DNA of 64,000 nt from Streptantibioticus ferralitis (GTDB taxonomy: Bacteria; Actinomycetota; Actinomycetes; Streptomycetales; Streptomycetaceae): NCBI RefSeq assembly GCF_029223525.1, contig NZ_JARHTQ010000010.1, positions 62,001-126,000 on the forward strand, read 5' to 3'. The notes beneath the pieces were generated by a model. It was not told the DNA's origin. It worked only from the letters and a program-made list of their open reading frames with translations, and did not search any database. This document shows, piece by piece, positions 1,667 to 52,002 of the stretch; positions within the stretch are counted from its first letter, which is position 1; each line of letters opens with the position of its first letter. Both the position numbers and the translations under genes were made by a program.

Positions 1667-1673
1667 CCGACCA

Positions 1674-4340: not shown

Positions 4341-4439
4341 CCGCCGCGCTCCCTGCCTGGCCCGAGGGCCGTCCTCTGCCCTCGCCAGCCGCCTTGACGT
4401 CCTGTGGGCTCTCATACGCGACCAGCGAACCTTCACCAC

Positions 4440-4792
4440 CGAGCCGCCCCGACGTGATCTCGCTCCGGCGTAGCACGGTCATCATCAGCTACCAAGTCGC
4501 TTGGCAAACCTGATGGGGAATCACTGTGGTGCAGCGACGCCGAGCGCGTTGCATTGCGTGATTCTCACCGCTGCTGTCACGGGCGAAATTCTTCCCCGCG
4601 TCTTCAGTATCATTCGCGACCGGGAACCATGGATTATATGAAAAGCGTTTTACGCCACGGGTGTACCGACCATCCTACATTCACCTCTTGGTCTGCCCTT
4701 CTCCGGGGGTTCCTATCCAGATAGATTGATTTTGCCCACCGCTCTGCAGCGTCGTTTCACCGTCGGCAAGCGTGATGGGAGAGAACAGCGTC
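4440..4792 (+). other. Leader/promoter region of the polysaccharide operon
   Basis: No convincing gene lies in this stretch. It is clearly A/T-richer than its surroundings, especially 4560-4750, as expected for the promoter of the long downstream operon. A run TGAAAAGCGTTTTAC sits at 4639-4653. I could not assign -35 and -10 boxes with confidence. Confidence 0.45.
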
Positions 4793-26832: not shown

Positions 26833-28433
26833 CGCGTGCTCCCTGCGACGCGTTCGGCGAGCGCCCGCTTGTTGACCTTGCCAAGTCCCGTGCGGGGGAA
26901 GGATTCCATCACTTCGACCCGGTCCGGCAGTTTGAACGCGGCGAGGCCGAGGGCTGTGAGGTGGGCGTTCAGCTGCGCGCGGGTGGGCGGGACGCCACGG
27001 GCGATGACACAGGCGCAACTGCGTTCGCCCAGCGTCAAGTCCGGGATTCCGACGATGGCGACGTCATGTACGGCCGGGTGGCCGAGCAGGTGGTTCTCGA
27101 CCTCCTCGACCGGGATTTTGTCCCCGCCCCGGTTGATGACGTCCTTGATCCGGCCCTCCACCATGAGGTGCCCGCTGGGCAGTTGGCGCACCAGGTCGCC
27201 GCTGCGGTAGTAGCCGTCGGGAGTGAACGCGGTGCGGTTGTGGTCGGCAGCCCGGTAGTAGCCGCGCACCGTGTACGGGCCGCGGACCTGCAACTCGCCG
27301 ACCTCGCCGGGTGCCACCTCGCGGTCGTCGATGTCCACGATCCGCAGCTCGTCATCGGCGGCGAGCGGGCGGCCCTGGGTGTGCAGCAGCAGGTCGTCGG
27401 GGTCGTCGAGGCGGGTGAAGTTGAGCAGTCCCTCGGCCATGCCGAAGACCTGCTGCAGGCGGCAGCCCAGCGCCGGACCGATCCGCGCGGCGGTGTCCGG
27501 CTTGAGCTTGGCCCCGCCGACCTGGAGTAGCCGCAAGCTGCTGAGGTCCGCCTCCGCCCACTCGGCGGCCTCCAGCCAGAGCAGGGCCAGCGGCGGTACG
27601 AGCGCGGTGACGGTGACCCGTTCGCGCTCGATCAGGCGGAAGGCGTCGTCGGGGCTGGGGGTCGGGCTGAGCACGACCGTGCCGCCAACGTGCAAGGTTC
27701 CGAGGACACCGGGGCAGGCCAGCGGGAAGTTGTGGGCTACGGGGAGGGAAGCCAGGTAGCGGGTGGTGGCATCGAGGCCGGTCACCTCGGCGCTGGCCGT
27801 GAGGTTGTAGACGTAGTCGTCGTGTGTCCTCGGGATCAGTTTGGGGACGCCGGTGGTGCCGCCCGACAGAAGGAGGAGAGCGACGTCGGAGGGACGGGGT
27901 GCGGGCAGCGGCCGCGGATCGGCGTCGACCGACGACAGGGCGGTGAACTCCCCCGGGTCGCCTGCCACCAGCACGTGGCGCAAGGTCGGTGTCTTCTCAC
28001 ACACGATCCGGGCGAGGGGGCGGTGGTCGAAGCCGAGGTGGGAGTCGGGGATCACATAGGCGACGGCCTCGGAGAGCCGGGCCAGGTGGGCGATCTCGGT
28101 CTCCCGGTGCGCGGGGAGGGCGAACACGGGGATCGCCCCGAGCCGGAAGAGCGCGAAGGACAGGACGAGGAACTCGGCGACGTTCGGCAAGTGCACCAGC
28201 ACCCTGTCCCCGGGGGCGATCCCCAGGCCGTGGAGACCGGCCGCCAGGCGGTCGGCCCGCTCGTCGAGCTCGCGGTAGGTCCAGCGACGGTCGCCGTCGA
28301 TGACGGCGGTGTGGGCGGGCCGGGCCAGGGCCCGGTCTCTCAGCAGCGAGCCGAGCGTGTGGCCCTGCCAGTAGCCGCGTTCGCGGTAGCGGGTCGCGAA
28401 CTCCTCCGGCCAGCCGGTGAATCCGTCCAGCAT
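26829..28433 (-). CDS. Salicyl-AMP ligase (aryl acid activating enzyme)
   Basis: This 534-residue stand-alone adenylation enzyme of the DhbE/YbtE/MbtA/PchD family activates the aryl acid and loads it on the ArCP of NRPS1. Seen are [20 protein letters not shown] (P-loop), [37 protein letters not shown] and [12 protein letters not shown] with the catalytic Lys. In HNFPLACPG the position equal to Ser240 of DhbE is Cys, the residue associated with salicylate rather than 2,3-dihydroxybenzoate. ATG 28433 has AGAAAGG upstream. It sits 29 bp after the salicylate synthase. Confidence 0.93.
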
Positions 28434-28462: not shown

Positions 28463-29758
28463 TCAGTTCTCGGTCGGCACGACGTACGGAGCGACGCCGG
28501 CGAGCTTCTCGCAGGTCTCCTCGTACTCGCGGGCCGGGCGGGATGCTCCGACCACACCCGCGCCGGCGCGCAGCCAGGCCCGCCCGTCGCGCTGGTAGAC
28601 CGCACGCAGCACCAGGGCGGCGTCCAGCGAGCCGTCGCTGTCGGCCATCAGCACCGTCCCCGAGTAGAGGCCGCGTGGTTCCTCCTCCAACTCCTCGATG
28701 AGCCGGTACGCGGCCGACTTGGGGATGCCGGAGGCCGTGACCGGTGGGAACACCGCGCCGAGTGCGTCCCATGCCGTATGGCCGTCGGCCAGCGTCGTGG
28801 CGACGCGGGAGGCCAGGTGCTGAACGCTGCCGCGCGGTTTGACGGTGAGGAACTCTCCGACCCCGGTGGTACCCGGCCTGCCCACCGAGGCCATCTCCTC
28901 GAAGGCGAGTTTGACGGAGGTGGCGTGCTCGAAGACCTCCTTGGGGTCGCTCAGCAGCTCCGCCCGCAGGGCCTCGTCGGTGTCCGGGTCGCCGGTGAGC
29001 GCTCGAGTGCCGGCCAGCGGCTGGGTCGAGGCCGTACCGGAACCGTCCACCTCCACCACGGTCTCCGGGCTGAATCCGGCCGCCTGCCAGCCGCCGAGGT
29101 CGAGCAGGAAGGAGCGGGCCGGGGTGTTGTGGCGGCGGCCGAGCACGTAGGTGGCGCACAGGTCGACGGCGAAGGGTATGGGCACAGTGCGCGACAGGAT
29201 GACCTTCTGCAGCCGATCGCGTCCGATCTCCGCGACCGCGTGTGCGACGCCGGCACGGTAGGGCCGGGCACCGGTACGGACCGGTACCGGCACGGCGTCG
29301 GCGCGGGACGGTTCGGCAGGTTCACCCAGCAGCTTGCGTGCGGCGTCGATGGTGTCGTCGTCGAGGGCGCGGACCAGGATCTCGTCCTGCGCCACCTGGA
29401 ACTCCAGTCGAGGAATTATCAGGTGAGCCAGCGTCTGGTGCGCCCCTTGGGCACCCTGGCTGGCGAGTTCGAAGCAGGCCCATCCGTAGGCGCGCCAGCC
29501 CGCCAGCGGTACCCGGTCGAGCGCCGCTTGTATCCGCCGCCAGGGGGTCCCGGCCCAGGGCTCGTCACCGCCGAAGGTGCTGCGCACCCGCCGTGCGTCG
29601 ACGCGGATCTCCCCCAGCGGATTGCCCGCGACGTGCCATCGCTGCCCGCGCTCGTACACCACGTGGTCGGTGAGCAGGCCGGAGCCGACCAACTGGGCGA
29701 CGACCGCGAGCGGGTCGAACCGGCCCTCGACGAGCGCCTCCCGGTAGCTGTCCGTCAC
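28463..29758 (-). CDS. Salicylate synthase (Irp9/MbtI family)
   Basis: This 431-residue chorismate-utilising enzyme converts chorismate to salicylate via isochorismate. Key features are RLQKVILSR with the general-base Lys, [21 protein letters not shown] with the family Thr-Arg region, [17 protein letters not shown] and [20 protein letters not shown], the salicylate-synthase signature near the C-terminus. Length equals MbtI/Irp9. It overlaps the NRPS2 stop by 4 bp and lies directly upstream of the salicyl-AMP ligase, fixing the starter unit of the pathway as salicylate. Confidence 0.94.
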
Positions 29759-32700
29759 GATGCCGTCTCCCTCGCGGTGATCGGTGCGGCGATGAGCTCG
29801 GCGACCTGGCGCGCGTTCTGCTCCTCGATGCAGCTGAAGTGGTTGCCTTCAATGTCGGTGACCCGCATGTCCCCGATACAGACCTCGCGCCAGAAGGCGA
29901 GGGTGGTCTCGTCCATCCCCGGCGCGAAGCCGGACGCCCCGTGCGGGCGCAGGAAGCGGAGGTCACCGGCGTACGGCGCTGGGGTGAACCGCGCGGACAG
30001 GAAGCTCTGCCGGAAGACACGGAACATCGCGCCGACCATCTCCGCCGGCATCTCTTGGCCCGTCGCCTCGGAGGCGGCGCGGGCGTACTGGACGAATCGT
30101 TCCTCCCGGGTGTGGGCATCGAGGCTTCGGAAGTAGGCGGCGATCCGATCCAGTTCGGGGTCACCTCCGACCTCGGCCAGGGCTCCCTTGGGCACCCGTC
30201 CGTCGTGGCCCTCGACCACCTTCATGAAGGCACGGACCATGGCGTCGGGGTCGACTTCGCCGAAGCCGGCCTGCTCGAGGGAGATGTGCAGGTTGGGGAT
30301 GAAGAGCATCTCGATCATCACGTCGTCCTCGACGTCGATGACCACGGGGTGGCTGCTCACCAGGATCAAGTCCTCGACCAGCACGCCCCGTTCGTCCAGC
30401 CGCCGGGCCACTTCGGCGGCGAACAGGCCGCCCAGGCAGTAGCCGATCAGCTGGAAGCGGGTGTGTCCCTCGGCCAGCAGTCGCTCGGCGTAGTCGTCGG
30501 CCAGCCGCTCGATCACCTCGGCCGGATCGAGCGAGGTGTAGGCCTCGGTGTCATCGATGACGACGCCGAGGACCGGGCCGAGGCCCTGTGCCACCAGTTC
30601 CTTGGCCAGCGGCCGGAAGCAGTCCATGGTGCCGAGCCCGGCGTGGAACAGCACCCGCACCGGACCGTCTCCGCCGGTGCTGAAAGGCACCAGAACGGCG
30701 TTGCTGGAATCGGCGCGTCGCCCGGCAGGAGCGTCTCCGGACACCTCCGGCCGTGCACGCAGGAATCGGGCCAGCGCCTCCAGGGTCGGGTGGTTGAGCA
30801 GCTGGCGCAGCAGCGTGTCGAACGGTACGTCGGCGGCTTCGGGCAACTCCTCGCGCAGGCGCCCGGCCATCCGGGCCATGATCAGGGAGTCGGCGCCGAG
30901 GTCGTAGAAACTCTCCGTGCGGCCGATCCGGCCGACGGCCAGGGCAGCCGACCACAGCTCGGCGAGCTGGGCCTCGAAGGAGTCGGCGGGTTCGTCGGCG
31001 CGCGCTGCGCGGATGCCACCGACCGGCGCGGGCCGCCAACCCTGCAGCGTACGGCGATCGATCTTGCCGTTGCCGGTGAGCGGGAGCGCGTCGACGATCT
31101 GCAGGTGTGACGGGAGCATGTGCGACGGCAGGCGAGCGGCCAGGTGGTGCAGCAGGTCCGCCTCGGTCACCAGCACCCGGTCGGTCTTCAGACGGACGGC
31201 GAAGAGGTGGACGCCCTGAGGGGCGAGGGTGTGGTCGTCGTCGGGCAGGCAAAGGACGTTCTCGATGCCGGTGGCCTTCGCCAGCAGTTCCAGCCACTGG
31301 TCCCGGTCGAGATACGACGAGCCGGTCGTACGGCGGGTGTCCTCAGGGGCGGTCATCATGAACGCCTGAGAGGCCAGGATCCACGGGTGTTCCCGGGTCG
31401 GCTCGGTCAGCACCAGCCAGCCCCCGGGGGCGACCAGCTCGGCGAGCCGGGCGAGCGCCGCCTCGGTGTCGCGGGCGTTCTCCAGCACGCCTGCGGCCAG
31501 CACCACGTCGAAGGAGTTCGGTGCCAGACCCTGCGCGCGATGGTCCGCGTCGACGTCGAACACCCCGAAACGCACCCACGGATGTGCACCGAAGCGGTTG
31601 CGCGCCTCGGGCAGGAAGAACGGCGAGACGTCGGTGAACAGGTAGTCGGTCTCGAAGCCTTCGGCAAGTGTGGCGAGGACACCCTCGGTGGTGCCGCCGG
31701 TTCCGGCTCCCACTTCGAGGACCCGCAATGGGCGGCCCGCCGGTCGGTGTTCCTCGGCGATGTGGCGGAAGAGCGAGGAGACGGCGCCGTTGAGGTAGCG
31801 GGCCATGCTGTGCTCGCGGTACAGCGCGTGGGCCGTGTCGAACCTCCCCTCGGGGAAGAGCAGTTCCACCGGGTCCTGCTCGCCGGTCAGCAGGGCGGGC
31901 AGCCGTTCGGCGTTGCGTCGCAGATAGGCGAGGAACTCCGGGGAGCCCAGCGCGTCCGTCCAGGCCGCAGAGACCTCCGCCCAGCGTTTGGCCGCCGCCT
32001 CCTCGTCGACGGGGCCGAGGTCGGCTTGCGCCAGCACCGCCCGCCAGCGCCCGACCAGCCACTCGTGGCGCGGGTCGATGGCGGCCCCCGCTGCCTCCAC
32101 CTCGCGCAGCGCATGGGCCATCGAGGAGAGCACGGCCGTATCGAGTCGCTCGATGTACGTCTCGACCTGAGCACGGGTCAGGCCCTCGGCAACCTCGTCC
32201 GCCAAGGCGCTCACCGGGGCGGAGACCTCGCCGCCGCTCCGGGAGGCGCGGGCGCACTCGGCCACCGCCAGCAGGCCGCGTTCGGAGCCGGATCCGTCCA
32301 GGACGACGCCCGCGGCGGCGACGGCCGGGTGCTCCAGCAGCGCGGCCTCGATCTCCCCGAGCTCGATCCGGTGGCCCCGAAGTTTGACCTGGGTGTCCTC
32401 CCGTCCAAGGAACTCGATCTCCCCGCCGGGCAGATAGCGACCGAAGTCGCCGGTGCGGTACAGCCGTTGGCCGTCCTGCGGGTGGGTGATGAAGCGGTAC
32501 GCCGTGGTCTCCTGGTCGCCGAGATAGCCCTCGGCGAGTCCGGCTCCGGAGATGTACAGCTCACCGACCGTCCAGACCGGGCAGTCGCGCAGCGCGCTGT
32601 CCAGTACACGGAAGCCCTGGTTGGCGAGGGGTGTGCCGTACGGGACGCTCCGCCAGCCCGGGTTCAGGCCGCTGTACGGGTGGTGGATCGACCAGATCGA

Positions 32701-35142
32701 CGCCTCGGTGGCGCCGCCCAGGCTGATCACCCGCAGCCCGGGCACGCGCCCGGTGATCTCGTCGGGGAGGGTGATCGGGATCCAGTCTCCGGAGAGCAGG
32801 GCAAGGCGCAGCGTGGGCAGCGCGATCCCGGGCTCGGTCTCCAGGTAGGTGGCGAGCATCTGCATCAGCGCGGGTACCGAGTTCCACACCGTCACGTCGT
32901 GCTCGGCGATCAGCGCGGCCCAGTGTGAGGGGTCGGCGCGCCGCCCGGCGTCCGGGTAGACCAGGGCGCCGCCCACCGCGAGAGGGCCGAAGATGTCGTA
33001 GACGGAGAGGTCGAAGCCGAGGTTGGCCAGGCCCAGGACGCGGTCCTCGCCGGTGACGCCGAGGCGGCGGTTGATGTCGGCGATGGTGTTGCCCGCGGCG
33101 CGGTGGCTGATCACCACGCCCTTGGGGCGTCCGGTGGAGCCGGAGGTGTAGATGACATAGGCGGGTTGGTCCGGGTCGCCGCCGGTCGGCACGGTTGCCG
33201 GTGTGGTGGAGGGCAGTCGGTCCACCGCGATGACGTGCGTGCCCTCGGGCCAGTCGGCGTCCACCCAGGACTGGGTCAGCACGTGGCGTACCTCGGCGTC
33301 CGCGAGGATGGCGGCGCGGCGCAGCGGTGGCTGGACGGTGTCAACCGGCAGGTAGACGGCTTCGGTGAGCAGCGTCCCCAGTACGGCCGCGACTTGTTCG
33401 ACGCCCTTGTCCATGACGATGGCAATGCGCTCCCCCGGTGAACAGCCCACCGAGCGCAGTGCCTCGGCGACAGCGGTGGCCTGGCCCGCTAGTTCGCCGT
33501 AGGTGACGACGCCGTGCGGGCCGTACACCGCGGGCCGTTCCGGGGCACGCACCGCGTGGGCGAACACCGGCTGGTGCAGCAGGGTGTTGGGCAGGGGTGC
33601 CGCGGTATCGTTGACTCGGCGGCGTTCCTGCTCCTGCCAGGCGGGCAGCGGGACGGACTCCCCGGCGTCCCAGGTCTCTTCGCTGGTGGCGAGGGCGCGC
33701 AGCAGCGTTTCGAAGGCGGCGAACATGTCGTCTACGACGCCTTCGGGGAAGACGCCTTCGCGGGCATCCCAGTTGACCTGTAGTCCTTCGGCGTCGTCCA
33801 TCGCCTGGCAGTCGATGAACACCTGCGGGGTCTGGGTGATGCCGAAGCCGCCCAGCCGACCGGAGACATGCCGCCCGCCGTCGCTGAGGCCGATGGCACT
33901 GGTGAACACGATCGGCAGGAGAGCGGCCTCGCGCCCGCGCCGGCGGGCGAGTTCACGCAGCACCTCGACTCCGGAACACAGCCGGTGGTCGAGGTCGTCG
34001 AAGAGCTGACCGCTGACCGCCATGGCGCGCTCGGTGAACGAGGTGCCCGCGCTCCAGTCGACGGCCAGCGGGTTGACGGAGGTGAAGTCGCCGACGATCC
34101 GGTCGACGTTCGGGTGCAGTGGCAGTCGGCCCAGCACCGTGAGGTTGAGGGAGAAGCGGGACGTACGGCTCCACCGCTCGATCACGGCGGCGTAGGCGGC
34201 CAGGACGGCCGAGGACGCGGTGAGTCCGCGCCGCTGGGCACGCTGTTTGAGCTGCTCCCAGGCGGGGCTGTCGAGCTTCAGGAAGCGGCGTCGGAAGCGA
34301 GGCTCCGACTGACCGTCGGCCGTCGGCAGTTCCGGTGCGGGTGGCAGCTCGTCGATCCGGACCCACCAGTAGTCCCTGTCGCGCTGGTAGCGGCTGCTCT
34401 CGCGCAACTGGCGTTCGGCCAGCAGGTAGTCGCGGAACCGGACGTCCAGCTCTGGCAGTTCGCGGGCCGGGGCCGCGTGCAGAGCCTCGAACTCGGCCAG
34501 TAGCAACCGGATGCTGGCCCAGTCCGCTATCAGGAAGTCCAGGGACAGGTGCAGCACGGCGCGGTCGGGACATCGGCTGACCCGCAGGTCGAACAGCGGC
34601 CACTGGGTGGTCTCGTGCACCCGGTGGCCCAGTTCCTCCCGCACGGCCTCCAGCGCGCTCTCGATCCGTTCGCTTTCCGCCTCTCGCAGGTCGGCCGCCG
34701 GAACGGACAGGTGCGGGACGCTTGGCAGGACCCTCTGGGAGCCGTCGGCCTCGATGACGGCCCGCAGCATGTCGTGGCGCTCGATGAGCCGGTTCCATGC
34801 CGCCTCGACGCGCTGCGGGTCGAGGTCGGGGTAGTTCACCTCCAGGTAGACGTGGCAGGCGACCCCGCCATAGCCGAAGGCGTCATTGCGCCCGAGGAGG
34901 TATGCGGCTTGAACGTCGGTGAGCGGGAACGGCTCGTGTGCGGCCTGCGGTGCTGGCGTGATGGCGGTCGGGGTGCTCTCTGCCCGCAGGTGTTCGATGA
35001 CGACGGACTTGGCGCTCCGCAGCGCGTCGCGCTGCTGCGGGGTGAGGGCGCCCTTGGGAGCCCGGTAGCGGAGTTCACCGGACTCCTCCCACAACGTCAC
35101 TCCGCCGCGGCGCAGTTCGGCGATCAGCTCGGCTGGGCTCAT
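29755..35142 (-). CDS. NRPS2: TubC_N-Cy-A(MT)-PCP-TE, terminal cysteine module
   Basis: 1795 residues. A TubC-type N-terminal docking domain (1-50, MSPAELIAELRRGGVTLWEE) is followed by heterocyclisation domain Cy (about 75-500) with D-F-L-I-A-D-W-A-S, the DxxxxDxxS hallmark near 200. The A domain follows (AYVIYTSGSTGRPKGVV near 665), and its code reads D-L-Y-N-L-S-L-I-W, the cysteine code. A methyltransferase (about 980-1325, LEVGAGTGGTT near 1143) is inserted between the A core and the TGNGKIDRRTL motif. Then PCP (DLGADSLIM near 1415) and TE with GYCLGG near 1567, where Cys replaces the usual Ser, and His in EGNHFSCIEE. The ATG at 35142 is chosen at the docking domain; the frame is open to 35331. 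Confidence 0.93.
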   Translation of the reverse strand: MSPAELIAELRRGGVTLWEESGELRYRAPKGALTPQQRDALRSAKSVVIEHLRAESTPTAITPAPQAAHEPFPLTDVQAAYLLGRNDAFGYGGVACHVYLEVNYPDLDPQRVEAAWNRLIERHDMLRAVIEADGSQRVLPSVPHLSVPAADLREAESERIESALEAVREELGHRVHETTQWPLFDLRVSRCPDRAVLHLSLDFLIADWASIRLLLAEFEALHAAPARELPELDVRFRDYLLAERQLRESSRYQRDRDYWWVRIDELPPAPELPTADGQSEPRFRRRFLKLDSPAWEQLKQRAQRRGLTASSAVLAAYAAVIERWSRTSRFSLNLTVLGRLPLHPNVDRIVGDFTSVNPLAVDWSAGTSFTERAMAVSGQLFDDLDHRLCSGVEVLRELARRRGREAALLPIVFTSAIGLSDGGRHVSGRLGGFGITQTPQVFIDCQAMDDAEGLQVNWDAREGVFPEGVVDDMFAAFETLLRALATSEETWDAGESVPLPAWQEQERRRVNDTAAPLPNTLLHQPVFAHAVRAPERPAVYGPHGVVTYGELAGQATAVAEALRSVGCSPGERIAIVMDKGVEQVAAVLGTLLTEAVYLPVDTVQPPLRRAAILADAEVRHVLTQSWVDADWPEGTHVIAVDRLPSTTPATVPTGGDPDQPAYVIYTSGSTGRPKGVVISHRAAGNTIADINRRLGVTGEDRVLGLANLGFDLSVYDIFGPLAVGGALVYPDAGRRADPSHWAALIAEHDVTVWNSVPALMQMLATYLETEPGIALPTLRLALLSGDWIPITLPDEITGRVPGLRVISLGGATEASIWSIHHPYSGLNPGWRSVPYGTPLANQGFRVLDSALRDCPVWTVGELYISGAGLAEGYLGDQETTAYRFITHPQDGQRLYRTGDFGRYLPGGEIEFLGREDTQVKLRGHRIELGEIEAALLEHPAVAAAGVVLDGSGSERGLLAVAECARASRSGGEVSAPVSALADEVAEGLTRAQVETYIERLDTAVLSSMAHALREVEAAGAAIDPRHEWLVGRWRAVLAQADLGPVDEEAAAKRWAEVSAAWTDALGSPEFLAYLRRNAERLPALLTGEQDPVELLFPEGRFDTAHALYREHSMARYLNGAVSSLFRHIAEEHRPAGRPLRVLEVGAGTGGTTEGVLATLAEGFETDYLFTDVSPFFLPEARNRFGAHPWVRFGVFDVDADHRAQGLAPNSFDVVLAAGVLENARDTEAALARLAELVAPGGWLVLTEPTREHPWILASQAFMMTAPEDTRRTTGSSYLDRDQWLELLAKATGIENVLCLPDDDHTLAPQGVHLFAVRLKTDRVLVTEADLLHHLAARLPSHMLPSHLQIVDALPLTGNGKIDRRTLQGWRPAPVGGIRAARADEPADSFEAQLAELWSAALAVGRIGRTESFYDLGADSLIMARMAGRLREELPEAADVPFDTLLRQLLNHPTLEALARFLRARPEVSGDAPAGRRADSSNAVLVPFSTGGDGPVRVLFHAGLGTMDCFRPLAKELVAQGLGPVLGVVIDDTEAYTSLDPAEVIERLADDYAERLLAEGHTRFQLIGYCLGGLFAAEVARRLDERGVLVEDLILVSSHPVVIDVEDDVMIEMLFIPNLHISLEQAGFGEVDPDAMVRAFMKVVEGHDGRVPKGALAEVGGDPELDRIAAYFRSLDAHTREERFVQYARAASEATGQEMPAEMVGAMFRVFRQSFLSARFTPAPYAGDLRFLRPHGASGFAPGMDETTLAFWREVCIGDMRVTDIEGNHFSCIEEQNARQVAELIAAPITARETAS

Positions 35143-35209: not shown

Positions 35210-35905
35210 TCATCCCTTCGGCACGGCGGCGGTGAAGGCGGCGCCGTGTAGCTTGTCGGGGTCCAGGTCGGCCTTGAGACCGGCCAGTTCCACGCCGAGG
35301 AGCCCGGTCCGCGGTGCGGGCTCGACGGCAAGCCACCGGTCCTCGCCGATCAGCGCGTCGAAGCAGCGCCGGTCGGCATCGGCCACCCCCATCCGGACCC
35401 GGGCGATGCCGTGAGCGCCGTTGGGGTGTACGACGTGTGCGGGGCGCTGCGGCGGGTCGTAGGCGGAGACGACGAAGGGCAGCCGGGACGGGCGCGGGGC
35501 GAGGAACTGGTACCGGACGAGCTGACCGTCCGGTCGGGTGCGCCGTCCCTTGACGACCCGGGAGAGGGGAACCCCCGCCGCGCGCAGCGTCGTCCGGGTC
35601 TGGTGCAGGGCCGACTCGTCCGTCTCCAGGGCGAGGTCGCGCCAACCCTCGCCGGGCCGGGCCCAGCGCGTGAGGCGCTCGCCCGCACCCGGCCCGTAGG
35701 CGGCACCGAGTGGCCATCGCAACAGGCGGAATGCGGTGTGCAGTTGGAAGAACTCGATGAACGGCCCCTCGGCGAACCACAGCAGCGCGTTGTGCGCCCG
35801 CGCGGGGTCGCTGCCGTACTCCACGGTGAAGCCGAGGTCCGTGAAGTCCCTGACGAGGGCCCGGACGTCGTCGACCTTGTAGACGAGATGGCTGGTTCTC
35901 AGCAT
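35210..35905 (-). CDS. VOC (glyoxalase-fold) superfamily protein
   Basis: This 231-residue protein starts MLRTSHLVYKVDDVRALVRD, the first betaalphabetabetabeta motif of the vicinal-oxygen-chelate fold, followed by LGFTVEYGSD and EFFQLHTAF. A second half (HGIARVRMGVADADRRCFDA) likely forms the second motif. VOC proteins include lyases, dioxygenases and metal-ligand or drug-binding resistance proteins. Its start overlaps the stop of the reductase-MT gene by 7 bp, so it is inside the biosynthetic operon. Role unknown; binding or self-protection against the chelator is a possibility. The frame is open to 36298 but that part is antisense-frame noise over the MT. Confidence 0.75.
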   Translation of the reverse strand: MLRTSHLVYKVDDVRALVRDFTDLGFTVEYGSDPARAHNALLWFAEGPFIEFFQLHTAFRLLRWPLGAAYGPGAGERLTRWARPGEGWRDLALETDESALHQTRTTLRAAGVPLSRVVKGRRTRPDGQLVRYQFLAPRPSRLPFVVSAYDPPQRPAHVVHPNGAHGIARVRMGVADADRRCFDALIGEDRWLAVEPAPRTGLLGVELAGLKADLDPDKLHGAAFTAAVPKG

Positions 35906-38145
35906 GGTGAGGTCCTTGCGGCGAAGAGGCGCTGGCCCAGCGGTGCGAGCGGATGGTCCTCGCCGGGCAGCGTGAGGACGTTGTCGATACCGGCGTCGCC
36001 GAGTACGTCCAGCCACTGGCGGCGCGAGAGGAAGGTGGTGCCCGAGTCGAGGCGGGCGTCTTCGGGGGCGGTCATCATGAACGCCTGCGAGATGAGGATC
36101 TCCAGGTGCTCGCGGGCCGGTTCGGTGATCAGCAGCCAGCCGCCGGGGACCAGCAGTTCGACCAGGCCGCGGACGGTCGCGGCGGTGTCCCGCGCGTTGT
36201 TCAGGACACCGGCCGCGATGACGATGTCGGCGGAGCCCGATGCATAGCCCTGGGCGCGGGGGGCCCGGTCGATGTCGAACAGGTCGAAGCGGATCCACGG
36301 GTGCCGCGCGAAACGCTCGCGGGCCGGGGCGAGGAAGAACTTCGAGACGTCCGTGAAGAGGTAGTCGGCCTTCAGGCCGCCCTCGGCCAGCGCCGCGGTC
36401 ACCGCTTCGGTGGTCGCGCCCGTTCCCGCCCCGGCCTCAAGGATGCGCAGCGGGCGCGGTCCCGGATGCACCGCGGCGACCGCGCGTACCGTGGCCGCGA
36501 CCGCGGTGTTGAGGTATCGGGCTGTGACGGTGTCGCGGTAGACGGAGTCGGCCAGTGCCGAGCGGCCTTCGGGGAAGAGGAGGAGCGCGGCCTGCTGCTC
36601 GCCGGTCATCAGCTGGGGCAGACGTTCCGCGTTGCTGCGGAGGTAGTCGATGAGTTCGGGCGGTCCCAGTCGGCCGGTCCACGATTCGGCGGCCAGGTCC
36701 CAGGCTCGACTGGTGGCGGCCTCGCCGACCGTCCTGGTGGAGCGGAACAGCTCGCCCTCGCGCTCGACCGGGCCGCGCTCCACCAGCTCCTGGAGCCAAC
36801 GCTCGATCAGCCAGTGGTGCACAGGTGCCACACGCCCGGCGGTGAGGATCTCCGGTATACTGCGGCCCGACTCGTCCAGGCCCTGGGCTTGCAACGTGAG
36901 CAGCACCGAGGACAGTACGGCTTCGTCAAGGCGCTTTACGAAGGCCTCGACGTGGTCGGCGGTGACTCCGCGCACCTGCGCCTCCGCGCTGGTCACCGCC
37001 TGGGCGACGGCACCGTACAGGCTGGCGGGGGTGTGCTGCCGCCCGGTCAGGCCGCGTTCTTCCCCGACGGCGGCCACGGCGGCGGTCAGGTCGCCGACGG
37101 CCACCGGCTGGTGGACCTGCTGGGGGCGCAGAGCGGGATAGCCCAGCTGCGAGGTGACGTCCTGCCACATGCGGCACAGCGTCAGGTGATACTGGTCGGG
37201 GCGCTCGCCGCCGAGCTCCCCCAGGATGGCCGCACGCAGCGCGAGCAGGTCGCCGCCGATCGCGGCGGGCCACAGCTCGCCCAACGCCTGGCGATATCCG
37301 GGCTGTTGGGACGGACCCAGAACGGTCGTGCTCGGATCCCCCAGATGATCCGTGCCAGGCCCCGTGAAGTCGAAGTGGTTCTTGGCCGCATCGGGGATGT
37401 GCAGGCGTGGGCTCCAGGTGACCGGGCCGTGCGTGTCGCAGAGGGTGAGCCTGCCACCGGCCGTTCCGATGGTCGCCTGGTGCAGAAGGTGCAGATGGTT
37501 GTCGGGGTCGGCGGGATCGACCTGGTTGTGTACGCGCAGGGTGAGTGGCACGCCCCCGATCTGCCCGGTCAGGACGGAGAACGGGCCGTCGGCGCCGTCC
37601 GCCGCGGCCACCCGCCACGGTCGCACCGCGCCCAGCGCGTCGCCGAGGATGTGGAGCAGCGGGAAGGCGACCTGCACCGAACAGGCCGCGTCCACGTGGA
37701 CGGCCGGCTGCCGGGCGAGCAAGGCGCGGGCTGCCGCCGCGAACCTGCGCACGGCAGGCAGCCGGGCGTACAGGTCGCCGACCCGGAAGTGGACACCCTG
37801 GCGGCGTGCCTCGCGCAGGCATGCCACCAAGTCGTCGTGGTGCACGGGCTGTTCCTGCATCACGTAGATGCCCCGGCGCAGCAAGCGCAGCGCCAGGTCG
37901 GTGCCTGCGCCGCCCATCACGCCGGAGCGCAGGACGACACAGGCGAGGTCGATCTGGTCGGGCAGTTCCTCGGGATCGGTGAACAGCGGTACGGCGTAGC
38001 GCTCGGCGCACTCGACCGAGCGCCTGCTGCCCTTGGCGAGCACACCGATGATCTCGAACTCGTCCGGCAGCGCGGCGAGCGCGGACAGGTAGAACTGGCC
38101 GAACGTCGTCCCGCACACGATCACCCGCAGCCTGCGACCGTTCAC
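35899..38145 (-). CDS. Thiazolinyl-imine reductase fused to NRPS-type methyltransferase
   Basis: 748 residues. About 1-360 are a Gfo/Idh/MocA-like thiazolinyl-imine reductase (Irp3/PchG type): RVIVCGTTFGQFYLSALAAL, DLACVVLRSGVMGGAGTDLA, GIYVMQEQPVHHDDLVACL. It would reduce a carrier-bound thiazoline to thiazolidine with NADPH. Residues about 430-748 are a complete copy of the type of methyltransferase usually embedded in A domains: VEAFVKRLDEAVLSS helices, RILEAGAGTGATTEAV, DYLFTDVSKFFL, AGVLNNARDT and ISQAFMMTAPED, closely resembling the MT in NRPS2. GTG 38145 overlaps the upstream stop (GTGA); the open frame to 39156 is a shadow. Fusion of these two activities is unusual. Confidence 0.88.
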   Translation of the reverse strand: MNGRRLRVIVCGTTFGQFYLSALAALPDEFEIIGVLAKGSRRSVECAERYAVPLFTDPEELPDQIDLACVVLRSGVMGGAGTDLALRLLRRGIYVMQEQPVHHDDLVACLREARRQGVHFRVGDLYARLPAVRRFAAAARALLARQPAVHVDAACSVQVAFPLLHILGDALGAVRPWRVAAADGADGPFSVLTGQIGGVPLTLRVHNQVDPADPDNHLHLLHQATIGTAGGRLTLCDTHGPVTWSPRLHIPDAAKNHFDFTGPGTDHLGDPSTTVLGPSQQPGYRQALGELWPAAIGGDLLALRAAILGELGGERPDQYHLTLCRMWQDVTSQLGYPALRPQQVHQPVAVGDLTAAVAAVGEERGLTGRQHTPASLYGAVAQAVTSAEAQVRGVTADHVEAFVKRLDEAVLSSVLLTLQAQGLDESGRSIPEILTAGRVAPVHHWLIERWLQELVERGPVEREGELFRSTRTVGEAATSRAWDLAAESWTGRLGPPELIDYLRSNAERLPQLMTGEQQAALLLFPEGRSALADSVYRDTVTARYLNTAVAATVRAVAAVHPGPRPLRILEAGAGTGATTEAVTAALAEGGLKADYLFTDVSKFFLAPARERFARHPWIRFDLFDIDRAPRAQGYASGSADIVIAAGVLNNARDTAATVRGLVELLVPGGWLLITEPAREHLEILISQAFMMTAPEDARLDSGTTFLSRRQWLDVLGDAGIDNVLTLPGEDHPLAPLGQRLFAARTSPC

Positions 38146-39218
38146 AGGGCTCCCTCCTCGACCACGACCAGCTGATCGATCGTTGTTTCCAGGACCGTCA
38201 GTTCGCATCTGTCGCGCAGCCGCCCGACGGTGGCCGACGGGTCGAGCGCCGTCGCGGCGTGCCGGGCTCCGGCCGGTACTTCGCCGCGCAGCACGGCCAG
38301 CGCGGTGGCGGCGGTCATGGCGCCGGTGAGCTCGGCGATGCCGGGGGCGCGAAGGACCGCCGTGCGGGTGGCCGCCCTGCCCGCTGCCGTGGTGCCGTCG
38401 AGTTGAATCAGCAGGGTCACGTACGGGGTGCGCCCGGCGGCGTCCAGTGCGGTGGCCCGGCACAGGTCGGCCGCCGCCTCGGCTGGTGGCCGCGTACGGG
38501 CGGCGTCCAGCGCGGCGCCCAGGTGCTCGCCGTCCAGCACGGTGTACCAGTGGCCGTGGGTGAGCGAGAGGTCCCGGGCCAGTTGTTCGCCCTCCGCGTC
38601 GAGGTACGGGACCGCGCTGACCTCGCGCGGGAAGAACGGTAGCGTGACCGCCGCCTGCCGGGTCAGGGCGGAGGAGCGGCGGTCGCCGTCCCGCCAGGCG
38701 GCGAGCGGCTCGTTGTCGCCGCCGAGGACGCCGCGCAGATAGTCCTCGGCACCGGTTGGGGTGAACCGGTCGAGGACTCCGGCGTAGCAGGTCAGGGCAT
38801 GCACGGTGGTGAACTCCCGGGCCGCCAGCCAGCGGGGCAGCAGGCCGGACAGGCCGGGCAGGGCGCCTGCGGCGAAGACCGCGCGGCGCTCGCCCACGTA
38901 CTCCGGTACGGTGTCCCCGCCCGCTTCGACGTAGTGTGCTCCGGCCGCCAGCGCCGCACGGGCCACGCGTGCGGCGGTCCGGTGTGATGGGCCAGCGCAA
39001 CCCACGACCACCTCGCAGCCTTGGACGAACGCCGCCAGTGAGGCGTCGTCGTCGACGTCGACCACGGCCGCCTCGACCGTGCCGGGCAGGGCGGCCGCAG
39101 CGCGCTGAGCCGCCGTCAGGTTCCGGCCGCCGATGCGCAGCGGGCCCGCGCCCCACTCGCCCAGCAGACGGGCGGCCTGCGCGCCGACCGCGCCATAGCC
39201 GCCGATGATGCCGATCAC
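38142..39218 (-). CDS. Saccharopine-dehydrogenase-like NAD(P)-binding enzyme
   Basis: This 358-residue protein has an N-terminal Rossmann fold MIGIIGGYGAVGAQAARLLG with GxGxxG-type glycines, then VVGCAGPSHRTAARVARAAL and GAHYVEAGGDT, typical of the saccharopine dehydrogenase/Lys9-like superfamily. No lysine-pathway neighbours are present. It lies between NRPS1 and the imine-reductase gene with 4-bp overlaps on both sides. It may be a second imine/thiazoline redox enzyme or act on an aldehyde/imine intermediate; substrate unknown. Confidence 0.8.
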   Translation of the reverse strand: MIGIIGGYGAVGAQAARLLGEWGAGPLRIGGRNLTAAQRAAAALPGTVEAAVVDVDDDASLAAFVQGCEVVVGCAGPSHRTAARVARAALAAGAHYVEAGGDTVPEYVGERRAVFAAGALPGLSGLLPRWLAAREFTTVHALTCYAGVLDRFTPTGAEDYLRGVLGGDNEPLAAWRDGDRRSSALTRQAAVTLPFFPREVSAVPYLDAEGEQLARDLSLTHGHWYTVLDGEHLGAALDAARTRPPAEAAADLCRATALDAAGRTPYVTLLIQLDGTTAAGRAATRTAVLRAPGIAELTGAMTAATALAVLRGEVPAGARHAATALDPSATVGRLRDRCELTVLETTIDQLVVVEEGAL

Positions 39219-42200
39219 AGGGCGCCCTCTTCCATCTCGTCCGCCGCCGCCAGTTCCTCGGCGAGAGCCGCTGTCACCTGGGCGAGGCTCGGTCCTGCGA
39301 ACAACCGCCGCAGGGGCAGTTCAACGCCGTAGCGCTGCTTCACACGCTCGATGAACCGGGTGGCCAGCAGGCTGTCGCCGCCCAGCTCGAAGAAGCTGCG
39401 CCTTCTGCCGACCGTTGAGCGACCGAGCAACTCGGCCCACATAACCGCGATTTCCTGCTCCAGGCCGCCCTGCGGGGCTTCGTCCAAGTCCTCGGAGCCG
39501 TCTGCTGCGGCGAGCGCGGCGAGAGCCGCGCGGTCCACCTTGCCGTTGGCGCTCAGCGGCAGCCAGGGCAGGACCTCGACGCGCTCGGGCACCATGTGCG
39601 CCGGAAGGCGGGTCGCCACGTGGGCCCGCAGCCCCACCGGGTCCAGGTCGACGGCCGTCTCCGGGCGCCGCGCCCACAGCAACTCGGTGCCGGGTGAACC
39701 CATGGGGCGGTAGCCCGCGTCGCTCAGGCCGGCCCGGGACAGCAGCTCGGCCCAACGTGAGCCGGGCAGCATCGGAGAACCCGCCTTCTGGCGTTCGCGG
39801 TCGAAGCCGGAGTAGCCACGATCGAGGAGGGCCCCTGTCAGCAGGACGATGGGCGTCAGCTCGGCTCGCTCGGCGGCGATCAGCGTGCCGCCGCTTCGGG
39901 CGAGCAGGGCGGCCAGCGCGAGGCCCTGGGCCGGGTCCGGGTAACGGTGCAGGGCGTTCACGGCCACCACCGCATCGAACCGGTGTCGCAAGTCGTCGGA
40001 TATTCGGCGCAGTTGGTGGCAGGCCGTCTGATGTGGCAGCGCTTCCAGACGGCGGCTCGCCTCGGCGACCATGGTCGGGGCGGGGTCGAGCAGGGTGTAG
40101 CGCACCTGCTCCGGGCCGAGGAGGCCCAGCAGGCGGGCCGCGGTCCGGCCGTCTCTGCCGCCGAGCTCGGCGACCTCGATGGGCCTGCCCGCCTTCTCCG
40201 CCAGGTCGGCCAGGCGACGGGCGATCTCTGCGATGACCTGCGCGGTCCCCGGGTCTTGGTCGGCGAGGCTCACCGGGGACAGCGCATCGTCGTCGAGCAG
40301 TACCGCCGGGTCGAGACGGCCGGCGAGGATCTGCCGGTAGTCGTCCAGCCGCTCCAGCAGCCGGGCGTGGACGCGGGCGATGAGGCCGCCGTACTCGTCA
40401 GTGCCTACCTGCGGTTCGGTGCGAGTGAGCGCGGACGCAAGGCCGGGTCCGGCACCGTATGCCCCCGCCTCTTCGACCAGAACCTTCTGTTCGACCAGCC
40501 AGCGCAGCCACAGCCGCAGGGTCGGTAGGTGCTCGTCCGCCACGCTCAACCGCGTGGCGAAGTCGTATGGTTCTCGATCAGCGAGCTCGTCCAGGCGGAG
40601 CAACCTGATGAGGACGGCCTCGACCGCCTCGCCCTCCTGCTGGAGCGCGCGGGCCCGCTCCGCCAGAAGGTCGGCGCTCGGCTCGGTGCCCTCGGCGTCA
40701 ATCGACTGCGACGGCGTGGCCGGGACCACGGCGGCGAGCAGTTGGCGGGCCGCGGCCTCACCGGCGACCGTGACGACGGCGCCACCGACACCGGGATGGT
40801 CCCGCAACGCGGCTTCGATTTCGCCGAGTTCGATCCGGTGGCCGCGTACCTTGACCTGGCGGTCGGCCCGGCCGAGGAACTCCAGCGTCCCGTCCGGCCA
40901 GTACCGGCCCAGGTCCCCGGTGCGGTACCACCGCTCGCCACCGAGCTCTACAAACCGTTGAGCCGTCGCATCGGGCGCGCCACGGTAGCCACGGGCCACC
41001 CCCGCACCGCCGATCCACAGCTCACCGGTCACCCAGTCCGGGCAGTCCCGCCCCAAGGTGTCCACCACCCGGTAACGCTGGTTGCGCAGCGGAAACCCGT
41101 ACGGGATCGACCGCCACCCCGGCTCCACCTCGGCCACCTCGAACGCGTTGGACCAGATCGCCGCCTCGGTGGCACCGCCAAGAGCGACGAACCGGCAGTC
41201 GGACCGCTGCGCCGCGAGCCGCCCCGGCAGATCAAGACCCACCCAGTCACCGGAAACCAACACCATCCGCAAAGGATCAGGAGCCTGCTCCCCCTCCGCG
41301 ACCACCAACAGCATGTCCAGCAACGCAGGCACCGAGTTCCACACCGTCACCCCATGACAGCGAACCAACTCCAGCCAGCGCCGGGCATCACGCCGCGACT
41401 CCTCCTCGACCAACACCACCGCACCACCCACCGACAACGGACCGAACACGTCGAACACCGACAAGTCGAAATCCAGCGCGGACAACGCCAGCGTCCGGTC
41501 CTCGGAGCCGATGGCGAAGCGGGTGTTGATGTCGTCGACGGTGTTCATCGCCGCCGCATGCGTGATCTCCACACCCTTGGGCTCACCGGTCGAGCCCGAA
41601 GTGAAGATCACGTAGGCGAGTGCGTCCGGGTCGGAGTCGACGGGCCTCGGCGCGGGCTCGACCGAGACGAAGTCGTCGATCACCAGGGGCCGAAGCGACT
41701 CCGTCCACCCCGAAGCCGCCTGACCGGCTTCGTCGGTGACGACGAAGTGGACGTCGGCCAGGCGATGGATGCGATCCCGGCGCGCGGCCGGCTGGTCCGG
41801 GCCGACCGGCAGATACGCCGCTCCGGCCGCGAGCACCCCGAGCACCGCGGCGATCTGGTCGGGCCCCTTGGGCAGGGTCACCGCGACCACCTCACCTCGC
41901 TGGACGCCATGTTCGGCGAGGAGCGTTGCCAATCGAAGGGCGCGCTGCGCGAGTTGGCCATAGCTGAGCCGCTCCTGGTCGCCCCACCGCAGCGCGACGC
42001 GGTCGGGGTGCTCGGCGGCACGCTGGAAGAATCCCGCGTGAAGCAGCTGAGCCGGGGCCGTGGTACCAGTCGCGTTGACCCCGGCGCGAGTGTCCTGCTG
42101 GGGCCCGGGGAGCAGGTCCGGTCCGGCCGAGTCCCAGTCGCCCCAGCCAAGCCAGTCGAGCAGCCGAAGGTAGGCGTCGAACATCACGTCGACCAGGCCG

Positions 42201-45200
42201 TCCGGGAAGAGTTCCTCGACGACGTCCCAGTTGAGGTGCACACCGCCGTCGGCGGCGTCCGTGACCTGGTGGTCGAGCCACACCTGCGGGGTCTGCGACA
42301 CCCCCCACACGTAGTCGGTGAACAGCCCCGAGCCGGGTTCACTGCCGACGCCGAGGGCGCTGGTGAACACGACGGGCATGGTCGTCTCGGGTTCGCCGGT
42401 GTGCCGGGCGAGTTCACGCAGCACCCAGACGGCTGAGACCTCCCGGCGGTCGAGCGCCTCCCACAGCTCCTGCTGCACGCGCCGTGCCTTCGCCAGCCAG
42501 CTCTCCCCCGACTGCGGACGGCAGGCGACGAGCATCAGCGAGGTGAAGTCACCCAGGACGTTGGCGATGTCCGGGTGGACGTCCTTGCGGTCGAACAGCG
42601 TGAGGTTGAGTGTCAGGTCGGCCCGGGCGCTCCATCGTCCGAGCACCTCGGCGAAGGCGGCGAGCAGCACTGCGGATGGAGTGAGACCGTGCTCGCGGGC
42701 CCGGTCGGTGATCGGCCGCCAGTGCGCGGCGCTGATCCGGGCCTCGCGCCGGGTGAACCGCGGTCGGTGAACCGTAGCCGGATCCACGGCCAGCGGGAGC
42801 TGCGGCGACGGCGGGAGGTCGGGCAAGCGTTCGTTCCAGTATTCCCGCGCGACGGCGAGGGCGGCGGGTTCCCGGGCGGCGCCCAGCACGTAGTCACGGA
42901 ACGAGACGCCCACCGGGGGCAGTTCGGCGTCCAAGTCCTCGTAGAGGACGCCGAGTTCGGCGTAGAAGGTGAGGATGCTGAGGGCGTCGAGGACGATGTT
43001 GTCCACGCCGATTCCCAGCCGGATGCGGTTGCCATAGCGGACGGCACGGATCGAGAAGAGCGGCCAGCTCGCCGGGTCGAACACCTGGTGCGAGGCGGCG
43101 TTCCGCAGTTCCTCGAAGGCGGCTTCGGGCTCTGATCCGGCCTCGGTGACGGTGACGCGGTAGCGGGGCACGTCGGGCAGAATGCGCTGCCGGCCGCGTT
43201 CGTCAACGACGGCTCGCAGCATCTCGTGCCGCCGCACCAGGCGGTCGACGGCCGCCTCAAGGCGCTCCACGTCGAGGTCCAGCACGTCGTACTCGCGATA
43301 GAAGTGGCAGCCGACCCCGCCGAGGGTGAAGCCCTCACCCCGGCCGAGCCAGTAGGCGCGCTGGACGTCGGTCAGCGGGAACGGCTCCAGCCGGTGCTCC
43401 GGATCGGCGGCCAGGACGGTCCTGGACGGCGTGGTGTCGTCCAGCCGCAGGGTGGCGGCGAAGTCGGCAAGCACGGGGCGCCTGAAGAGCTGGGCGAGGG
43501 TGACGTCGGCGAAGCCGTCCGCCCGCAGCCGTCCGACCAGCCGTGTCGCGAGCAGGGAGTCGCCGCCGAGGGCGAAGAAGTCGTGTTCGCGGCCGACTTC
43601 GGCCACTCCGAGGATCTCGGACCAGGCCGCGGCAGCACGCCGCTCGATCTGGCCGGTCGGCCGGGTGACGGGCACGGCGCCCTGGGCGTCGTGGTGCCCG
43701 AGCGTGCGGCGCAGGGCAGCGCGGTCGACCTTACCGTTTGGCGTCAGTGGCAGCTCGGACAGCAGGGCGATCCGCTCGGGCACCATCGCCGAAGGCAGTC
43801 GCTCCGCCAGGAAGGCCCGGAGCTCGGTGATGTCCGGTGCCTTGCTGTCCTGGTTGCGTGACGCTCCCGCCGCTATGTCGGCCAGCGCCTTCCAGTCCGG
43901 TACAGGCTCGGGTGACGCGTCCGTGACAGCGGCGGCCAGTCCGCCGTCCTCGCAGACGACCGCGATGCCCTGGCCGACACCGGGAAAGTCCCGCAACGCG
44001 GCTTCGACTTCGCCGAGTTCGATCCGGTGACCGCGCACCTTGACCTGACGATCGGCCCGGCCGAGGAACTCCAGCGTTCCATCAGGCCAATAGCGGCCCA
44101 AGTCCCCTGTCCGGTACCAGCGCTCGCCTCCGGCCTCAACGAACCGATCCGCCGTCAGTTCAGGCGCACCCCGATAGCCACGGGCAACCCCCGCGCCACC
44201 GATCCACAACTCACCCGTCACCCAGTTCGGGCAGTCACGCCCCAACGCATCCACCACCCGGTAGCGCTGGTTCCGCAACGGACACCCGTACGGGACGGAA
44301 CGCCACCCCGGATCCACCTCGGCGACCTCGAACGCGTTCGACCAGATCGCCGCCTCCGTCGCCCCACCCAACGCGATGAACCGACACCCCGGCCGCAACA
44401 CCGCAAGCCGCCCCGGCAGGTCAAGCCCCACCCAGTCACCAGAGACCAACACCAACCGCAGCGGCTCAGGAGGCTCTCCGCCCTCCGCCACGATCAGCAA
44501 CATCTCCAGCAGCGCCGGAACGGTGTTCCACACCGTCACCCCGTGACAGCGGACCAGCTCCAGCCAACGTCCCGCGTCACGCCGTGCCTCCTCCTCGATC
44601 AACACCACCGCCCCGCCCACCGACAAAGGTCCGAAGACGTCGAACACCGACAGATCGAAGTCCAGCGCGGACAGCGCAAGGGTGCGATCCTCAGGTCCGA
44701 TGGCGAAGCGCTCGTTGATGTCGTCAACGGTGTTCATCGCCGCCGCATGCGTGATCTCCACGCCCTTGGGCTCGCCGGTCGAGCCCGAGGTGTAGATCAC
44801 GTAGGCGAGGTCAGCGGGAGCCCCGGGCACGGGTCCGACCAGTGGTGTGACGTCCTCCGGTACGGCGAGGTCGTCGAGGACGAGCCGCACTCCGGCAGTG
44901 CGGTGGATGCGTTCGCGCCGCAACTCGGGCTGGTCGGCGCCGAGGGGCAGGTAGGCCGCACCGGCGGCGAGTACACCCAGGACCGCCGTGATCTGTTCCG
45001 GCCCCTTGGGCAGGGTGACCGTGACCAGATCTCCGGGACCGACGCCTTGGGACCTCAGATGGGCGGCGAGGGCGAGCGCCCGTCCGGCCAGCTCTCCGTA
45101 GCTGAGCGAGCGGTCTCGGCCCCAACGCAGTGCCGTGGCCTGGGGGTCGCGGGTGGCGTACGCGAAGAAGCCGTCATGCAGCCGCGTACCCGGGATCGGC

Positions 45201-48748: not shown

Positions 48749-49504
48749 TCAGGGCGCTGCGGTGGCATTTCCAGCGAGTTGCCGCCGGATGGTGGCAATC
48801 ACCTCGCGGGGGCGTTCCGAAAGGTAGAAGTGGCCGCCCGAGAAGGTCAGCAGCTCGAAGGGTGCCGAGGTCCAGTCCCGCCAGCCGTCGGCTTCCTCGG
48901 CGGTGAGTTCCGTGTCGTCCGCCCCGATGAGCGCCGTCACGGGGCACGGCAGGAGGCCTTCCAGCTGGGGACGGTAGTTCTCGATCAGCCGGTAGTCGCC
49001 GCGGATGGCCGGCAGGACCAGTTGGCGGAGTTCGGGCATGGCCAGCAGGGCGGCGTCGGTGCCGCCGAGGCGGGCGAGTTCGGCACACAGGGCGTTGTCG
49101 TCGAGCAGATGAGTGGTACCACCGCGATGGTGCTGAGGTGCCTCACGGGCCGAGACGAACAGGTGGACCGGCGCAGGGTGGCCCTGACGGAGGAGATGCA
49201 ACACGAGTTCATGGCCGACTGCCGCGCCCATGCTGTGTCCGAAGACAGCCCATGGCCGGTCCAGTAGCGGTGCCACCGCGGTCGCGAGGCCGGAGACCAG
49301 CCCGGGTAGATCCGCCGGAATGGGGTCGTCGAGGCGGTCCTCGCGGCCCGGCGGGCAGGCGAGCAGAAGCTCCACCCGGGGCGGGAGCAAAGCGGCCCAC
49401 TCCCGGTAAAGACCGGTCGAGCCGCCCGCGTGCGGCAGGCAGACCAGTCGTAGTGCGGCGTTCGGAAGGGGGTGGGGGCGGCGCAGCCAGCGTTCCGCGG
49501 TCAT
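48749..49504 (-). CDS. Type II thioesterase
   Basis: This 251-residue alpha/beta hydrolase of the external NRPS/PKS thioesterase family removes misprimed acyl groups from carrier domains. It has LVCLPHAGGSTGLYREWAAL, WAVFGHSMGAAVGHEL with nucleophile Ser, SAREAPQ, GADDTELT with Asp and FSGGHFYL with the catalytic His. It is the last gene of the importer operon (18 bp after the ABC fusion), tying that operon functionally to the NRPS. Confidence 0.93.
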   Translation of the reverse strand: MTAERWLRRPHPLPNAALRLVCLPHAGGSTGLYREWAALLPPRVELLLACPPGREDRLDDPIPADLPGLVSGLATAVAPLLDRPWAVFGHSMGAAVGHELVLHLLRQGHPAPVHLFVSAREAPQHHRGGTTHLLDDNALCAELARLGGTDAALLAMPELRQLVLPAIRGDYRLIENYRPQLEGLLPCPVTALIGADDTELTAEEADGWRDWTSAPFELLTFSGGHFYLSERPREVIATIRRQLAGNATAAP

Positions 49505-52000: not shown

Positions 52001-52002
52001 GG

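Follow-up and report, generated by a model that had tools for sequence, protein, structure and literature searches.

We analysed a stretch of 64,000 nucleotides from Streptantibioticus ferralitis (contig NZ_JARHTQ010000010.1, positions 62,001 to 126,000; hereafter the window), which from approximately 23 to 54 kb carries a siderophore cluster with a gene set like those of coelibactin, sorangibactin and mupirochelin. One gene of this cluster encodes a 748-residue protein in which a thiazolinyl imine reductase is fused to a PchF-type methyltransferase (MT). The gene occupies positions 35899-38145, as given in an original prediction from the sequence that had left its strand unstated; it lies on the minus strand and runs uninterrupted through 748 codons and a stop from a GTG start at 38145, with gaggaggg immediately upstream. 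A longer open reading frame upstream of this GTG, open to 39156 and beyond, was rejected on its codon-position G+C content (0.585/0.881/0.801), which is unlike that of local genes. The corresponding values of the fusion gene are 0.753/0.502/0.887, and because its third-position G+C content stays at or above 0.80 in all 60-codon steps, the domain junction included, no frame change is visible in it. The start of the gene overlaps the upstream saccharopine-dehydrogenase-like gene by 4 bases, and its end overlaps the downstream gene for a vicinal oxygen chelate (VOC)/glyoxalase-like protein by 7 bases (Table 1).

The first half of the protein belongs to the thiazolinyl imide reductase family TIGR01761 (NCBIfam), whose profile matched residues 7-338 with 312.7 bits (cut-off 188.8) over profile positions 5-343 of 350; Pfam Irp3-like_C matched residues 149-245. 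When the Foldseek matches of an AlphaFold2 model of the fusion were re-compared, the first part of the model superposed on the Irp3 structure 5kvq with Z 35.5 over 329 residues at 4.0 Å. Tyr126 of the reductase was conserved in 58/58 rows, and this half was the only match of the reductase profile in a 41-kb stretch of the window. Irp3/YbtU and PchG share the family and the fold and likewise adjoin non-ribosomal peptide synthetases (NRPSs) with cyclization (Cy) domains; the solved Irp3 is, however, free-standing, whereas the window reductase continues into a linker and then an MT of ~375 residues.

Residues ~373-747 constitute an S-adenosylmethionine (SAM)-dependent MT with a helical N-terminal part and a Pfam Methyltransf_12 match at 569-671. 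In the model, which was computed from a 15-row alignment and had a mean predicted local distance difference test score (pLDDT) of 77.2, the linker at 338-374 was of low confidence, and residues 373-747 matched the C-MT of CurJ with Z 36.2 over 366 residues. CurJ is a carbon-MT of a polyketide synthase (PKS), and the fold common to both includes the N-terminal helical part. TIGR01761, Pfam and the fold comparison therefore bear out the predicted union of a reductase and a complete MT insert, helical region included, in one protein. The close likeness claimed to the MT inserted in NRPS2 of the cluster was also found, at 54% identity over fusion residues 355-745, a range that includes the helical N-terminal part, and with the DYLFTDVS, AGVL(N/E)NARDT and SQAFMMTAPED blocks all present. 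The insert in the second adenylation (A) domain of NRPS1, which the original prediction had proposed to compare with this MT, proved to be different, with 24% identity to the fusion MT and a motif I that reads ELGGRDG. Together with its flanks, this insert can be aligned to the PchE module into which an epimerase is inserted, and without them it gave no PchE match at E 1e-3; because the match needs the longer query, an epimerase-like nature of the insert is perhaps indicated, as a lead only.

With PchF (pyochelin), the fused MT shares the LNNARDT and SQ..MM...P.D.R motifs as they occur in a PchF-like row from Burkholderia, whose cluster we take, from gene order, to be pyochelin-like. The MT of PchF lies inside an A domain, whereas that of the window lies outside the NRPS, and its sister copy is placed between A8 and A9 of NRPS2. 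Because it is attached to a reductase rather than embedded in an A domain, the fused MT is a relocated copy and not a stuffed (A-domain-embedded) domain. According to published work, PchF is an N-methyltransferase (PMC8807600, PMC3672683).

A search for the same fusion in other genomes, as the original prediction had advised, gave nine further loci at which it is intact in a single frame, 10 with the window. Seven are from Streptomycetaceae (Streptomyces sp. RPT161, with 91% identity, S. chattanoogensis, Kitasatospora paracochleata and genomes G212, G119, G232 and G320), and two are from outside this family, on a Klebsiella pneumoniae plasmid (50% identity) and in a Ruminococcus metagenome assembly (37%). 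A stop or frameshift at the domain junction, which would have spoken against a single protein, was absent from the window, and the junction is open in these nine relatives. Two more relatives contain a frame change, in the linker in L091 (genome G394) and within the N-terminal part of the MT in L035, a Ruminococcus flavefaciens metagenome assembly. Within the window's family, the fusion was found in one frame in 7/394 genomes, plus G394 in two frames; an order-wide draw gave 2/293, plus G394, and a class-wide draw 1/296, namely the window's own genome. Around the Ruminococcus genome, the family draw yielded 1/197, and among 341 genomes of its class this Ruminococcus came up again, together with two frames of 743 codons (G994 and G1022), the latter of which was characterized. 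The Klebsiella copy (L029, CP032834.1, 52150-94354) lies on an IncFIB plasmid, in a cluster of the same kind as that of the window; of the 15 plasmid records listed among 261 matching, only this one spans 99% of the query without a break. Of two papers that name the isolate, the one from 2018 contains neither 'nonribosomal' nor 'salicylate' in its main text.

The phylogeny of the fused MT was then considered together with the NRPS2 MT. In an 80-row MT tree, which like the smaller tree leaves out the MT of L035 and a free-standing MT (L095), the 11 fused MTs formed one group (support 100/99) with five free-standing MTs (L092-L094, L096 and L097). Its sister group was formed by the ten inserts from NRPS2 of those clusters (100/100), with a joint support of 100/94, and the other relatives were mostly NRPS-embedded. 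A group of 32 rows (97/92) united them with PchF-like and Nocardia MTs; its inner order was unsettled and its Burkholderia branch long. In a 48-row tree, the clostridial fused MT grouped with that of Ruminococcus (100/97), and both lay within the fusion group (98/100); the NRPS2 inserts were joined by two NRPS MTs from clostridia (96/87). Care is needed with both placements, as the branches are long. The same tree split off 15 NVLH-type NRPS MTs at 100/100, and the PchF-like rows were outside yet adjacent. Given the sister relation of the fused MTs and the NRPS2 inserts from the same clusters, the trees indicate that the NRPS2-insert lineage duplicated once, long ago, and that one copy came to sit on the reductase. 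The earlier proposal that the MT was copied out of an NRPS is thus supported in its core by the sister relation, with the direction given by parsimony, but the event is old and shared and did not take place within this genome. A topology in which the 11 fused MTs are grouped apart from the five free-standing ones was not rejected (approximately unbiased test, p-AU 0.432).

The free-standing proteins (L092-L097; Streptomycetaceae; frames of 584-725 codons) have a C-terminal MT of the fusion kind, five of the six being in the tree. In their N-terminal 230-310 residues, the one match was a weak one to the Pfam AMP-binding profile, below the cut-off and in one of the three proteins scanned. A reading of these proteins as an A-domain fragment plus MT was not retained, as blastp and the A-domain profile were empty for the N-terminal part of five.

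In the sorangibactin (Srb) and mupirochelin (Mch) clusters, gene E encodes a saccharopine dehydrogenase, F and G methyltransferases, H a P450, I a reductase and J a VOC protein (PMC10127202, PMC10080011). According to these descriptions, the window shares with both the salicylate start, two NRPSs, the E-type gene, the reductase and the VOC gene, and the gene order in the window is E-type, fusion, J-type. The two clusters differ from the window in having two separate MTs and a P450; the window genes scanned contained neither, and a fused MT is found instead. Sorangibactin contains tandem N-methyl-thiazolidines, and deletion of the reductase, or of E, F or G, abolished sorangibactin A (PMC10127202).

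We assessed the presence of a separate MT with a profile of T2, an MT found attached to the reductase in a different set of clusters; SrbF and SrbG were known to us from text descriptions, and the profile rests on these reductase-fused MTs. Fifty-nine clusters were scanned, in stretches of mostly ~20 kb, after L098 had been settled as a repeat of L032, and L041 and L042 as one cluster; some of the 59 are near-copies or from one genome (for example L147/L149, L164/L165 and L148/L157). T2 was matched in 0/11 clusters with the window-type (type I) fusion, including the 41-kb window stretch, and in 30/48 other reductase clusters. In 13 of the latter, T2 is fused to the reductase (type II) and a second, free T2 is present; the 35 clusters with a standalone reductase divided into 17 with T2 and 18 with no match. 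Because each fusion arose only once, the clusters in these counts are not independent of one another. A VOC gene was matched in 10/11 fusion clusters and in 0/48 others, with a profile built from the window VOC alone that distant ones may escape. Judging from these scans, window-type clusters have lost T2 or never had it.

The type II fusion pairs the same kinds of enzyme in one chain and in the same kind of cluster as the window, but its MT is of another class-I family and its reductases fall in a separate clade. The T2-fused reductases formed a single clade (98/87) of 18 rows, two of them from the same genome. Type II fusions were seen in Streptomycetaceae and two other families (L056, L059, L060, L062-L064, L066-L070, L083, L084, L011, L139, L141, L146 and L199); L199 too has a second free T2. 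To call T2 and the stuffed MT wholly unrelated would be too strong: both are SAM-dependent MTs by Pfam, and the stuffed-MT profile still gave up to 16.1 bits on T2 sequences (13 shown of 14). By profiles and trees, one reductase family is joined to two MT families in separate lineages, which suggests an advantage of coupling reduction to methylation; a free thiazolidine might otherwise reopen or epimerise.

We therefore propose that the fusion is probably a bifunctional, trans-acting tailoring enzyme that reduces and then N-methylates a ring of a salicylate-capped thiazoline-type siderophore of the coelibactin/sorangibactin/mupirochelin kind. The reductase half would dock on a carrier domain and convert the carrier-bound thiazoline to a thiazolidine with NADPH, and the tethered MT half would then use SAM to methylate the nitrogen of the newly reduced ring, with the tether presumably holding the labile ring between both steps. 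Because NRPS2 has its own MT for the last ring and the insert of NRPS1 belongs to a different type, the enzyme probably acts on the ring formed by the second NRPS1 module. A single duplication of the NRPS2 insert would have given rise to the MT, which would then have been attached to the reductase in the common ancestor of such clusters and have taken on the role given to a separate MT gene in related clusters. Such a role is consistent with the PchF-like motif, the second reductase-MT fusion and the missing separate MT gene. The proposal starts from the observed architecture, conservation, phylogeny, motif type and absence of a separate MT, and predicts the choice of nitrogen over carbon or oxygen, the order of the steps, the ring position and the docking.

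Several observations weigh against this proposal. The predicted template modelling score (pTM) of 0.49 means that the domain orientation in the model is not firm, and support for a type I group in the reductase tree is weak (79/57), this group also taking in L112 and L155, two standalone rows on long branches. The absence of T2 amounts to one evolutionary event, and 9/11 fusion loci were covered by stretches of 14-22 kb that possibly miss outer genes. His101 and Tyr128 of Irp3 are its proposed acid residues, and the position of His101 is Gln in the window and in all type I reductases (11/11); it is His in 13/13 type II rows, and His in 22, Gln in 6, Gly in 3 and Leu in 3 of 34 standalone rows, from which L161, split in two pieces, was excluded. 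Finally, in the clostridial fusion (G1022; L196, 13397-15625), a divergent reductase half with a TIGR01761 score of 65.2 bits (cut-off 188.8) is joined to an NN-type MT; because this half scores below the cut-off and two standalone reductases share the stretch, the clostridial fusion may no longer be reducing.

The last two points would agree with a reductase half that serves mainly as a docking adaptor delivering the MT to the carrier, with reduction minor or performed elsewhere, since in L196 the MT is conserved beside a weak reductase half and two further reductases. However, the window's reductase half scores above the family cut-off, retains Tyr126 and has no second reductase-profile match beside it in the 41-kb stretch, and we consider a mere adaptor unlikely for this protein.

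It appears similarly improbable that the methyl acceptor of the fused MT is not the ring nitrogen but carbon, at the alpha position of Cys, or some other atom, for example a phenol oxygen. Among solved structures, those nearest to the MT half are carbon-MTs of PKSs such as CurJ, and C-methylation was predicted for the MT domain of MchB by the mupirochelin authors (PMC10080011). The residue at one signature position nevertheless argues for nitrogen. The His of the NVLH motif, as found in CurJ, is the catalytic base of carbon-MTs. At this position Asn was present in 11/11 fused MTs, in the string LNNARDT with a few rows varying around the Asn, and LNNARDT is common to the Burkholderia PchF-like MT. 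The 45 NRPS MTs of other clusters had His in 37, Asn in 6 and Asp in 2, and Asn occurred in the Burkholderia PchF-like row, in one Streptomycetaceae row (L157) and in four Nocardia rows. The 37/45 with the NVLH-type His suggest that C-methylation is likely for the NRPS MT inserts of the type II and standalone clusters.

The two MT copies might also be redundant, or both act on the last ring, given that the SAM motif is present in both copies in the 10 fusion clusters whose NRPS2 has an MT; GxGxG is kept in 11/11 fused MTs. This we hold to be quite unlikely. The signature position is Glu in 10/10 NRPS2 MTs from fusion clusters, as against Asn in the fused copies, and this fixed difference suggests that they no longer share the same job; in addition, Ruminococcus L036 has a fused copy and an NRPS2 without the insert, the fused copy being the only strong MT match in a 22-kb stretch. 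An assembly artefact in which two genes are read as one, for which the frame changes in L091 and L035 might be cited, is very hard to credit with intact frames at 10 loci and an even codon-position G+C content through the window junction.

A scripted count had listed an NRPS-embedded MT in L036, which was a 65-bit match on NRPS1 and not on NRPS2; the NRPS1 (332-8962) contains decayed MT-like inserts in both A domains, judged by eye.

Both halves of the fusion come from known families and the proposed chemistry is known, and it is the arrangement that is new: neither the reductase-MT pairing nor its single origin and spread was found described among the papers listed in the literature searched, which was mostly without subscription journals, and no report of the product of this cluster was found there. 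The fusion offers siderophore work a candidate two-step enzyme and predicts a tandem N-methyl-thiazolidine product for the cluster. It also indicates that an A-domain insert is able to persist and evolve outside its A domain, on a partner enzyme and across three phyla, so that the need of a stuffed domain for its A domain becomes testable with one 748-residue protein. More tentatively, and as a possibility rather than an expectation, a cis-acting insert duplicated out of an A domain may have become trans-acting through a ring-recognising reductase that contributes both catalysis and targeting, or targeting alone in Clostridia. If so, this fusion and the reductase-T2 fusion would point to a general path by which stuffed domains evolve into portable enzymes for two-step tailoring.

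The remaining genes of the cluster are listed in Table 1. The A-domain codes were taken by regular expression, and because the reading failed in several rows, it was used for the window only. The terminal thioesterase (TE) of NRPS2 has Cys in its motif (GYCLGG), as stated for sorangibactin; the Burkholderia PchF-like TE has it too, and the feature is hence non-specific.

Table 1 Features of the fusion gene and of the siderophore cluster around it, with positions in the window (T, carrier domain; MFS, major facilitator superfamily; ABC, ATP-binding cassette)
Feature	Positions	Strand	Remarks
Fusion gene, 748 residues: thiazolinyl imine reductase + PchF-type MT	35899..38145	minus	
Reductase domain (Gfo/Idh/MocA fold, Irp3-like)	37126..38139	minus	TIGR01761 and Irp3 fold match; bounds from purpose-built profile
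Stretch between both profile matches, 52 codons	36970..37125	minus	model residues 338-374 with pLDDT <50; MT fold starts near 373
MT domain per profile match (relocated NRPS insert)	35902..36969	minus	
Saccharopine-dehydrogenase-like oxidoreductase	38142..39218	minus	PF03435; SrbE/MchE-like by family
VOC/glyoxalase-like protein	35210..35905	minus	PF13468; SrbJ/MchJ-like by family
NRPS2: TubC_N-Cy-A[MT]-T-TE	29755..35142	minus	TE motif GYCLG, Cys replacing Ser; A code read DLYNLSLIW
NRPS2 MT insert, between A8 and A9	31189..32184	minus	sister group of fused MT
NRPS1: T-Cy-A-T-Cy-A[insert]-T	39215..46864	minus	
Insert in second A domain of NRPS1	39665..40687	minus	perhaps PchE-epimerase-like; other type than fusion MT
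Salicylate synthase	28463..29758	minus	TIGR03494, 447.2 bits (cut-off 325.15)
Aryl-acid adenylating enzyme, presumably salicylate-loading	26829..28433	minus	TIGR02275, 699.8 bits, slightly under cut-off 723.55
ABC transporter	25036..26805	minus	relative in Klebsiella cluster
ABC transporter	23267..25039	minus	relative in Klebsiella cluster
MFS transporter	47186..48685	plus	
Type II thioesterase	48749..49504	minus	
Peptide-type ABC importer (ATPase/permease, permease, binding protein)	49523..54338	minus	relatives in Klebsiella cluster

An IS110-family transposase (PF02371) lies near the outer edge of the cluster at 19598-20110, and a hydrolase like platelet-activating factor acetylhydrolase and PETase lies beside it at 21099-22484. 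The sorangibactin cluster also has an alpha/beta hydrolase, SrbA, and its deletion was without obvious effect (PMC10127202).

A recurring cluster of another kind was observed at four loci (L103-L106), consisting of an ABC importer, a frame of 591-924 codons with a stuffed-type MT and an NRPS with only a condensation-type match; a saccharopine-dehydrogenase-like gene is present in three of them (L103, L105 and L106).

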